Shown piece after piece: positions 6,397-28,126 of a stretch of 64,000 nt of DNA. The stretch comes from Chitinophagaceae bacterium (GTDB lineage Bacteria; Bacteroidota; Bacteroidia; Chitinophagales; Chitinophagaceae). Under the pieces are notes generated by a model. The model was given only the letters and a program-made list of their open reading frames with translations, did not search any database and was not told the origin of the DNA. The DNA is taken from NCBI GenBank assembly GCA_028288595.1, contig JAQBNK010000091.1, positions 1 to 64,000 on the forward strand. Reading direction: 5' to 3'. A program made the translations under genes and the position numbers. Position 1 is the first letter of the stretch. Every line of letters begins with the position of its first letter.

Positions 6397-6428
6397 TTTG
6401 GCGGCTTATAGCTCAACCGCTAATTTTG
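6397..6428 (+). promoter_or_regulatory. Bacteroidota-type promoter of carB C-terminal gene
   Basis: TTTG at 6397-6400, a 20-nt spacer, then TAATTTTG at 6421-6428. This is a full match to the Bacteroidota housekeeping consensus TTTG-N19/20-TAnnTTTG. The expected transcription start falls near 6434, about 10 nt before the ATG at 6444, so the leader would be very short. Confidence 0.75.
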
Positions 6429-25106: not shown

Positions 25107-25397
25107 ATGAGAAAGTCAGATTTGATCAATAATATTTCCGATAAAACGGGCATTCCTAAAGTAGACGTGTTGGTAGCCCTCGAAACAATGCTTAAGGAAA
25201 TCAAAGAAAACCTCAGCAAGGGCGAGAATATCTATATCCGCGGATTTGGAAGCTTTATCACTAAAAAAAGAGCCGCAAAAATAGGTCGTAATATCAAAAA
25301 GAATATCGCCGTAGAAATACCCGAACACTACATTCCTGCTTTCAAACCTTCAAAAGAATTTGTTAATGAAGTGAAAGAAAGCCGCAAGGACCAATAA
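25107..25397 (+). CDS. HU/IHF family nucleoid protein
   Basis: 96 residues, typical HU size. MRKSDLINNISDKTGIPKVD opens the helical dimer region, then ENIYIRGFGSFITKKRAAKI, GRNIKKN (the flexible arm) and IPEHYIPAFKPSKEF. HU-type dimers bend and compact DNA. In Bacteroidota this gene often sits divergent to mutY, as here. The start ATG at 25107 is unambiguous. It ends 22 bp before the TPR gene, on the same strand. Confidence 0.95.
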   Translation: MRKSDLINNISDKTGIPKVDVLVALETMLKEIKENLSKGENIYIRGFGSFITKKRAAKIGRNIKKNIAVEIPEHYIPAFKPSKEFVNEVKESRKDQ

Positions 25398-25419: not shown

Positions 25420-26277
25420 TTGATTAAAAGACAACAGGTTATATTATTAAGCAGCGGGATTTTGCTCCTTGCTGCTTTATTTTTTTTAGGCAATACCATC
25501 CCTCCAAAAAATAAAAAGCCTTCGCCATCCGGTGATGGCCCTCATAAAGAACCATCAGCTGTAACGACCGATCAGGTCATCACTCAATCAAAACAAAGTC
25601 TTAAACCAGAGCAGGTATCACGTCTAACAGCGCTTGAAAATGCAGTAGTTAGAGGTGATATAAAAAACCAGCAATTATCAGTTTACCACCAGCTTGCCCG
25701 TTTTTGGGGCGATACCATGAATAATCGTGTTCTGGGTGCATATTATCTTGGAGAGAGTGCCAAGTTGGAAAATTCTGAAAAAAACCTCACCTTTGCAGCC
25801 CGTTTATTGTTAGATGAGCTGATGCAGAGCGATAACCCGCCAATGCAACAGTGGCTCGGAACAGAAACGAAAAAGTTGTTTGAAAAATCGCTTGAACTGG
25901 ACCCCAAAAACGATTCTGCCAGGATTGGAATAGGTGCCTGCTACATGTTTGGAAATATTTCAGACAATCCAATGCAGGGAATACTAGCCATAAGACAGAT
26001 CGCAGAAAAAAACCCTCATAATTTGTATGCGCAAATGATGCTTGGTATGGGTGGTATCAGGAGCGGCCAGTATGATAAAGCAATTGAAAGATTTTTGATC
26101 GTGGTTAAAGAGCAACCAAATAACCTGGAAGCGATCTTTCATTTAGCGGAGACTTACGACCGCAAAGGCGATAAGGCAAATGCAATCAAGTGGTATAAAT
26201 CCGCTGAAGAAAATATTGCAGTACCTGAAGCAAAAAAAGAAATTCAGGCAAGAATAAAAACCTTGCAGACTAATTAA
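25420..26277 (+). CDS. TPR protein with N-terminal membrane anchor
   Basis: 285 residues from a TTG at 25420. No upstream in-frame ATG exists, and the start includes a membrane helix (VILLSSGILLLAALFFLG). A Pro/Lys-rich linker follows. Residues about 140-275 carry three to four TPR motifs (NDSARIGIGACYMFG, NLYAQMMLGMGGIRSGQYDK, NLEAIFHLAETYDRKGDKAN). Such proteins scaffold complexes at the inner membrane; the partner is unknown. It lies between HU and the tiny ribosomal-type protein, in one direction. Confidence 0.85.
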   Translation: MIKRQQVILLSSGILLLAALFFLGNTIPPKNKKPSPSGDGPHKEPSAVTTDQVITQSKQSLKPEQVSRLTALENAVVRGDIKNQQLSVYHQLARFWGDTMNNRVLGAYYLGESAKLENSEKNLTFAARLLLDELMQSDNPPMQQWLGTETKKLFEKSLELDPKNDSARIGIGACYMFGNISDNPMQGILAIRQIAEKNPHNLYAQMMLGMGGIRSGQYDKAIERFLIVVKEQPNNLEAIFHLAETYDRKGDKANAIKWYKSAEENIAVPEAKKEIQARIKTLQTN

Positions 26278-26303: not shown

Positions 26304-26399
26304 ATGCCTTGTGGTAAAAAAAGAAAGCGTCATAAGATCGCGACGCACAAACGCAAAAAAAGATTAAGAAAGAATCGTCATAAAAAGAAGAATAAATAA
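26304..26399 (+). CDS. 31-residue Arg/Lys/His-rich protein of the AURKAIP1/COX24 (bS22/mS38) type
   Basis: ATG at 26304, TAA at 26397-26399. The protein starts MPCGKKRKRHKIATHKRKKR and ends LRKNRHKKKNK. More than half of the residues are Lys, Arg or His. The spacing KRKRHKIATHKRKKRLRKNR fits the AURKAIP1/COX24 pattern of mitochondrial mS38 and mycobacterial bS22, which bind the decoding-site region of the small ribosomal subunit. In Bacteroidota such mini proteins are usually annotated this way. It sits 26 bp after the TPR gene and upstream of RNase G. Ribosome binding is inferred. Confidence 0.8.
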   Translation: MPCGKKRKRHKIATHKRKKRLRKNRHKKKNK

Positions 26400-26578
26400 C
26401 TTCTAACCTTTGTATACAGATACCGGTGAGCATCTGCAAACCGGTATTTACCTTTTAGCCTGATTTTCTTCTCCTGCAACTTACCTTTTCCTTATCAACA
26501 ACAATCAAGGCTGACGAAGTAGATTCGATGTACCTGCACTTGCCGGCAGACAGCCTGTTAATTTAAAAGTTGCGTTTT

Positions 26579-28126
26579 GTGAACAAAGAACTAATTATAA
26601 ATGCGGCTCCTACGGGAGTCGAAATTGCTTTACTGGAAAATAAAAAACTCGTAGAGCTGCATCATGAAAAAACAGATGCGAATTTTGCCGTGGGTGATCT
26701 TTATCTTGGAAAAGTAAAGAAATTAATTCCCGGTCTGAATGCTGCATTCGTAGATGTAGGGTTTGAAAAGGATGCATTTCTTCATTATACGGACCTTAGT
26801 CCTTATGCCCGTTCTATTTTAAAGTTCACGCAGGTTGCGATGAATGATAAAGCTGAAGGCGGTTTTGATTTTGCTAAGTTCCAGGTAGAACCGGAGATCG
26901 TTAAGACGGGTAAGATAAATGAAGTCTTAAACGGTAAGCCCAATGTTCTTGTACAAATATTAAAAGAGCCAATAGCCGCTAAAGGACCACGTCTTAGCTG
27001 TGAACTTTCTTTGCCCGGAAGATTTGTGGTCCTTACTCCGTTTAATGAAATTGTCGCGGTATCAAAAAAGATACATTCATCTGATGAACGCAAGCGCTTA
27101 CAAAAGATCATTGAGGCTATTCGTCCCAAAAACTTCGGTGTAATCGTTCGAACTGCTGCTGAGGGAAAGAAAACTGCAGAGCTGCATGAGGACCTTCTGG
27201 CTTTAACTGAAAGCTGGCAAATGATCCAGCGAAATTTAAAAGGCGCAGTTGCTCCTGCTAAAATTTTAAGTGAGCAGGATAAAACGACAAGTATACTTCG
27301 TGATCTGTTAACGGTCGATTTCAATAAGATCGTTACTAACGACAAAAACTTATATAACGATACCCGCACTTATATTCAAAAGATCGCACCTGATAAAACA
27401 GATATCGTCACCTTTCATAATAATGGCCTCCCGGTTTTTGATCATTACGGAATTACTAAACAGGTAAAGTCCGGATTCGGAAAAACAGTGAATCTTCCCA
27501 GCGGCGCTTATCTTATTATCGAACATACAGAAGCCTTGCATGTAATAGATGTAAACTCGGGTTATAAAAGCGTAAGTAATAACCAGGAAGAAAATGCGGT
27601 TGAAACAAACATGGAGGCTGCTGAAGAAATTGCCAGGCAGTTAAGACTAAGAGATATCGGTGGAATTATTGTTGTTGATTTTATTGACATGAAGCATCCT
27701 GATAATAAAAGAAGGTTACAGGATGCCATGGAAGGTTTTATGCGTACAGACAGGGCCAAGCATGCGGTGCTTCCTATTTCAAGATTCGGCCTGATGCAGC
27801 TTACGCGGCAGCGTATGAGACCTGAAATGAACATCAACACATCAGAAACCTGCCCTACCTGCCATGGCAGCGGGAAAGTATCTTCTACACTTTTATTGGT
27901 TGATGAAATTCAAACAAGACTGCAGTACCTCGTTAGTCATGGCCATAAAAAATTAACCCTTGCTATTCACCCGATCCTTTACTCACATCTTACCAAAGGA
28001 CTGTGGTCAATTAAAAGAAAGTGGCAGTGGAAATATAAGATCCCCTTTTATATAGAATCGAACAGCGATTTCTACCTCACAGAATTCCATTTTTACGATG
28101 GTAACCTGGATGAGATAAAATTTTAA
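26579..28126 (+). CDS. rng: Ribonuclease E/G family endoribonuclease
   Basis: About 515 residues. I favour the GTG at 26579 (MNKELIINAAPTGVEIALLE), which matches Bacteroidota homologues; a TTG nine bases upstream is the alternative. The S1 RNA-binding domain shows GDLYLGKVKKLIPGLNAAFV and GFEKDAFLH. The DNase I-like catalytic domain has the metal-binding Asp residues in HVIDVNSG and VVDFIDM. The Zn-link motif CPTCHGSG supports dimerisation. RNase G cleaves AU-rich single-stranded RNA in rRNA maturation and mRNA turnover. There is no long C-terminal scaffold as in E. coli RNase E. A strong terminator follows at once. Confidence 0.96.
   Translation: MNKELIINAAPTGVEIALLENKKLVELHHEKTDANFAVGDLYLGKVKKLIPGLNAAFVDVGFEKDAFLHYTDLSPYARSILKFTQVAMNDKAEGGFDFAKFQVEPEIVKTGKINEVLNGKPNVLVQILKEPIAAKGPRLSCELSLPGRFVVLTPFNEIVAVSKKIHSSDERKRLQKIIEAIRPKNFGVIVRTAAEGKKTAELHEDLLALTESWQMIQRNLKGAVAPAKILSEQDKTTSILRDLLTVDFNKIVTNDKNLYNDTRTYIQKIAPDKTDIVTFHNNGLPVFDHYGITKQVKSGFGKTVNLPSGAYLIIEHTEALHVIDVNSGYKSVSNNQEENAVETNMEAAEEIARQLRLRDIGGIIVVDFIDMKHPDNKRRLQDAMEGFMRTDRAKHAVLPISRFGLMQLTRQRMRPEMNINTSETCPTCHGSGKVSSTLLLVDEIQTRLQYLVSHGHKKLTLAIHPILYSHLTKGLWSIKRKWQWKYKIPFYIESNSDFYLTEFHFYDGNLDEIKF

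Follow-up and report, generated by a model that had tools for sequence, protein, structure and literature searches.

Introduction

In the ribosome of Borrelia burgdorferi, the small protein bS22 is reported to occupy a pocket formed by h2, h27, h44, and h45 of the 16S rRNA and to contact H68 of the 23S rRNA (PMC10618245). According to the same report, mass spectrometry found other ribosomal proteins and not bS22, which was placed from cryo-EM density. The protein of C. acnes is described as lying between h27, h44, and h45, with a contact to H67 that makes an inter-subunit bridge, and bS22 is noted in Flavobacterium johnsoniae as well (PMC10085706). The same site and a bent helix are reported for the bS22 of F. 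johnsoniae (Fjo), Msm, and B. burgdorferi (Bbu) as well as for mS38, and the Borrelia protein is reported to resemble its F. johnsoniae counterpart more closely than the mycobacterial one (PMC10618245). Within the same 16S cavity, eL41/aL41 is a reported analogue (PMC10618245; PMC10085706), although its helix is shorter and unbent (PMC10618245). Here, a candidate bS22 gene and its neighborhood are described from a 64,000-nt stretch of Chitinophagaceae DNA (hereafter the window), together with the distribution of the gene in Bacteroidota.

A coding gene for bS22

The ORF on the forward strand begins with ATG, runs for 31 open codons, and ends with TAA (Table 1). A hand count on the translation gives 18 lysine or arginine residues and three histidines among the 31 amino acids. 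Among 30 loci (i.e., the own genome and 29 relatives, compared over the first 29 codons), the uncorrected pN/pS of this frame is 0.048, a value that is only rough because pS is saturated (0.81). The mean pairwise amino acid identity is 0.979 in this frame, compared with 0.53–0.79 in the other five frames, in each of which 11 to 30 of the 30 rows contain stops. Similarly, the ungapped nucleotide identity at these 30 loci is 0.82 within the frame, whereas the flanks have only 0.27–0.44. These patterns identify the ORF as a genuine coding frame, far beyond chance. The original prediction of a 31-residue basic ORF at 26304–26399 was borne out to the exact coordinates, with this pN/pS value and an identity of 98%. 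Conservation of the 31-codon frame among relatives, on which that prediction had been made to depend, is also evident, since 38 of the 39 genomes searched in the family and order have the gene (own genome included; the sole miss is 57% complete).

Table 1. Coordinates of the bS22 gene and neighboring features in the window.
Feature	Coordinates	Strand	Evidence	Remark
HU-family DNA-binding protein gene	25107..25397	+	Pfam PF00216, E 7.7e-27	First gene of probable HU-TPR-bS22 unit
TPR-repeat protein gene	25420..26277	+	Pfam TPR_19, E 6.2e-10	TTG start as mechanically listed
bS22, 31-aa small ribosomal subunit protein (MPCGKKRKRHKIATHKRKKRLRKNRHKKKNK)	26304..26399	+	phmmer vs. PDB; pN/pS 0.048; 288/296 phylum genomes	
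Stem-loop after bS22	26418..26449	+	MFE, shuffles	Probably intrinsic terminator or 3' end
RNase G/E family gene (rng)	26579..28126	+	TIGR00757, E 5.2e-134; Pfam RNase_E_G, E 9.1e-100	Probably separate transcript

When the window peptide was searched against the PDB with phmmer, the matches comprised three distinct sequences, all of which are ribosomal chains (7jil_5, E 1.3e-9; 9i5v_10, E 2.1e-9; 8fmw_V, E 2.1e-7), with 28–29 residues aligned without gaps. Chain 8fmw_V presumably belongs to the Borrelia burgdorferi ribosome of PMC10618245. A 26-sequence profile matched the same three chains more strongly (E 1.9e-14, 5.7e-13, and 1.5e-11, respectively) and no further PDB chains at E<=10. In the PDB, the matched chains are named 30S ribosomal protein S22/bS22 or AURKAIP1/COX24 domain protein; the same chain is called 50S L38 in one entry set, which counts against the bS22 reading. 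The best match, chain 5 of 7jil, is identical to the window peptide at 25 of 29 residues, and 7jil is the ribosome of F. johnsoniae (PMC9976891).

The F. johnsoniae protein, which comes from the same phylum, is a gap-free ortholog of 30 residues. In the phmmer and profile alignments, it differs from the window peptide by C3S, I12V, L21A, and K23A, as well as by another C-terminal end. The Borrelia protein is of the same sequence type, with 28 residues aligned without gaps, although it comes from another phylum and has a reported GUG start (PMC10618245) rather than the ATG of the window gene. The invariant core in the 26-row alignment consists of P2, G4, K6, K11, H15–K19, R22, and R25–K27. The window peptide thus combines the length of bS22 (about 28–33 residues), a content of lysine and arginine above one half (18/31), the conserved core, and near-full-length similarity to ribosome-resolved bS22 chains. 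As an ortholog of 7jil chain 5, it confirms the predicted identity as a bS22 of the Bacteroidota ribosome. However, the notion of an unrecognized ribosomal protein in this phylum had been overtaken by publication, given the 7jil structure and the discussion of F. johnsoniae bS22 in two papers (PMC10618245; PMC10085706). Judged by its sequence, the window gene is an ordinary ortholog of a ribosomal protein already known in Bacteroidota. A search of NCBIfam and Pfam with the window peptide gave no family at E<=10. A conserved ribosomal protein without a Pfam or NCBIfam match is an annotation gap, and a model for the Bacteroidota-type bS22 would help annotation.

Gene neighborhood and transcription signals

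The TPR gene ends at 26277, 26 nt ahead of bS22, and about 180 nt separate the end of bS22 from the start of rng. The rng start is read as the GTG at 26579, with an in-frame TTG at 26570 as an alternative; the family searches used 26570–28126. Among the 30 relatives' loci, HU lies upstream of bS22 in 28, the TPR gene in all 30, and rng downstream in 29. Among 66 named Bacteroidota loci, the corresponding counts are 65, 54, and 65; both sets consist of best-scoring loci, such that close relatives are favored, and the neighbors were sought with the window's own proteins, such that divergent ones may be missed. Both rng misses (one in each set) are contig ends.

A comparison among classes separates these neighbors. 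The rng gene follows bS22 at 17 of the 17 loci from the window's own class, compared with none of the 27 loci from other Bacteroidota classes. HU is upstream at all 17 own-class loci, compared with 13 of the 27 other-class loci, for which 1.5 kb was looked at. In other phyla (14 loci), rng is never downstream, and the eight loci with HU upstream are all from Marinimicrobia. Among nine Marinimicrobia loci, eight have HU directly upstream of bS22, with the HU start 383–461 nt before the bS22 end (L140, L141, L143, L144, L145, L150, L152, and L162); the sequence of the ninth breaks off 33 nt upstream of bS22. Neither the four Spirochaetota loci nor the single UBP2 locus (326 nt upstream covered) showed HU near bS22. 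The pairing of HU and bS22 crosses phyla, i.e., Bacteroidota and Marinimicrobia.

Taken together, rng is a class-level neighbor, and HU is the older one. The original prediction had pointed to the position directly upstream of rng, which encodes an rRNA-processing enzyme, and the synteny check supports this adjacency among the relatives and the named loci. Its functional weight was not supported: the arrangement was seen only within the window's own class, and bS22 and rng are separated by a strong hairpin, such that the link looks like one-class gene order rather than a functional tie.

The hairpin after bS22 is supported by folding of positions 26400–26480, with an MFE of -17.1 kcal/mol and a z of -3.13; none of 200 shuffles was as stable. 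Terminator-like hairpins, as defined by a home-made test, follow bS22 at 14 of the 30 loci (own locus included), compared with 2.5 expected from single-base shuffles. This hairpin is absent from the list produced by a consensus terminator scan, and the sigma-70 and terminator consensus scan as a whole was at chance level. The Bacteroidota-type promoter motif is TTTG-N17-23-TANNTTTG. In the window, this motif has one match, at 6397 and far from bS22, compared with 4.8 matches expected by chance. Scanning the window for Rfam families and tRNAs gave no hits. The spacing suggests that HU, the TPR gene, and bS22 are probably co-transcribed, and rng is probably outside this transcript, which would end at the hairpin ahead of rng.

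Placement in the ribosome and alternative explanations

The ORF almost certainly encodes the ribosome-bound bridge protein bS22 of the Bacteroidota/Spirochaetota/Marinimicrobia type, probably as part of an HU-TPR-bS22 co-transcript. By homology to solved ribosomes, this protein would bind within the 30S subunit as a short, bent helix, in the 16S rRNA cavity between h2, h27, h44, and h45. From there, it would touch the 23S rRNA (H67/H68), making an additional bridge between the subunits. The lysines and arginines of the peptide may neutralize packed rRNA phosphates near the neck and the decoding region. For the window protein, we infer ribosome binding, the site, and the bridge from the orthologs.

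Two alternatives would remove the protein from the ribosome. A chance basic ORF in lysine-rich and AT-rich DNA could account for the shortness and low complexity of the peptide, and only these features speak for it; the matches to ribosomal chains in the PDB, the presence across genomes, and the low pN/pS all oppose it, and the conservation refutes it, leaving this explanation with a negligible probability. Alternatively, the peptide may be a nucleic acid binder that works with its neighbor HU in the nucleoid rather than in the ribosome. HU is indeed the deepest conserved neighbor seen, as the Marinimicrobia loci illustrate. However, orthologs have been modeled in ribosome structures, with side-chain fits reported for Borrelia (PMC10618245), and no HU gene turned up close to bS22 at the four Spirochaetota loci or at 14 of the 27 other-class loci (within the 1.5 kb looked at for the latter). 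A role as a partner of HU is thus very unlikely.

A different question is whether the window protein, accepted as bS22, belongs by descent to the mS38/COX24 family and shares a common ancestor with mycobacterial bS22. Actinobacterial bS22 and mitochondrial mS38 (COX24, AURKAIP1) are basic and reported from the same 16S cavity, and actinobacterial bS22 is similarly short. The helices of F. johnsoniae and actinobacterial bS22 are reported as superposable in the same pocket, and the C. acnes and F. johnsoniae proteins as 37% identical (PMC10085706). Furthermore, the depositors labeled one ortholog "AURKAIP1/COX24 domain-containing protein", and hhalign aligned the two bS22 profiles over 19 columns with an E of 0.003, although the probability was only 10.4%. 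Against descent, Pfam PF08213 (COX24_C) finds nothing in the own genome at E<=10; as a control, this model matched in three of 14 control genomes, one of them over the cut-off. Neither phmmer nor the 26-sequence profile matched any mycobacterial or mitochondrial chain in the PDB at E<=10, and the Smith-Waterman score between the window peptide and mycobacterial bS22 was reached by 797 of 5000 shuffles, such that the similarity is no better than that of shuffled sequences. The mycobacterial bS22 query weakly matched mitochondrial mS38 chains in the PDB (best E 0.11), but none of the three window-type chains at E<=10. Convergence of K/R-rich helices may also explain the resemblance. The AURKAIP1/COX24 signature spacing that the original prediction had invoked is therefore unsupported, given the silence of PF08213, the failure of the phmmer and profile searches, the equal scores of shuffles, and the ambiguous hhalign result. 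These comparisons suggest two bS22 sequence types in one pocket, for which common descent is possible; membership in the mS38/COX24 family is a credible hypothesis that falls slightly short of even chances.

Distribution and apparent losses in Bacteroidota

The bS22 gene is near-universal and single copy in the phylum. In a draw of 296 genomes, every one of which is at least 90% complete, the peptide was found in 288 (own genome included). The own genome has a single copy at E<=10; a few of the other family and order genomes give a second match, in each case a weak one (E 0.57 to 2.8). The other eight of the 296 genomes are without the peptide, and a search of these eight with two profiles gave no convincing match (best E 0.438 and 0.386). 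Two highly fragmented genomes, G284 and G329 (about 310 and 450 contigs, respectively), were left out of the losses. Because some nearly complete Bacteroidota genomes are without the gene, bS22 is not indispensable throughout the phylum.

Three of the eight lacking genomes carry the label Salinibacter, namely G183 (S. ruber DSM 13855), G231, and G235. In a draw of 60 genomes from the Salinibacter order, bS22 is present in none of the seven genomes of the Salinibacter family (G183, G231, G235, G350, G354, G358, and G363), compared with 52 of the 53 others, where the one miss is 89% complete. The S. ruber locus (L192) retains HU and, after it, a gene with zinc-ribbon-like CxxC motifs; no bS22-like frame was seen downstream of these two genes. 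At a relative's locus (L197), the order is HU, the CxxC-motif gene, and then bS22. Basic stretches in L192 were considered as bS22 and rejected, as they are kilobases away, on the opposite strand, and overlapping longer ORFs.

In the genus g111, bS22 is present in five of 12 genomes and absent in seven. The gap between HU and the converging gene, both of which remain, is 95–171 nt in three lacking genomes (L178, L179, and L180; three of the seven were examined), compared with 278–293 nt in three keeping genomes (L061, L063, and L071). COX24_C was also considered as a stand-in for the missing bS22 and rejected, with no match over the cut-off in eight genomes, six of which are without bS22. No phenotype for bS22 loss in Bacteroidota was found in the literature consulted. 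In the open-licence literature, no paper naming both Salinibacter and bS22 was found, and among the papers listed by a wider search, none has bS22 loss as the topic of its title.

16S rRNA and salt

The 16S rRNA was readable in nine of 26 genomes (five lacking and four keeping bS22), and no column separates the lacking from the keeping genomes. Within g111 (three lacking, two keeping), eight fixed differences were found. Six of these are outside the pocket helices, the other two (1443 and 1459) lie far down h44, and around the pocket the segments do not differ at all. Two 16S sequences from the Salinibacter family share 52 private columns, of which one, G21A, is in the segments compared around the pocket. 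This position presumably belongs to h1.

The acidity of proteins provides another view of these losses. The (D+E)/(K+R) ratio in 20-kb samples is 1.58 for the Salinibacter-family sample and 1.00 for the window genome. Within g111, the ratio is 1.25–1.29 in three lacking genomes, compared with 1.35–1.39 in three keeping genomes, and these values go against a salt explanation in that genus. For S. ruber, the S10-spc ribosomal proteins are reported to be more acidic (PMC8672879), which fits a salt explanation there. In salt-in Salinibacter, a peptide of almost only lysine and arginine may bind more weakly because of the molar intracellular salt, which may also supply cations that replace bS22. 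A tentative and rather doubtful reading of these patterns is that bS22, as a dispensable bridge, has disappeared on two or more occasions within Bacteroidota (in the Salinibacter family and in part of g111) with no shared 16S compensation, and that salt would be the likely cause in Salinibacter.

Implications

The bS22 gene of the window is of low interest in itself, and the losses are of moderate interest. If bS22 is a dispensable bridge and salt explains its loss in Salinibacter, the cavity in the ribosomes of this genus would be empty or filled with ions. The apparent losses constitute a natural experiment, in which close relatives with and without bS22 can be compared and, within g111, share the same 16S pocket segments. 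Such an experiment can probe the function of a bridge protein that shares its position with mS38 and eL41.
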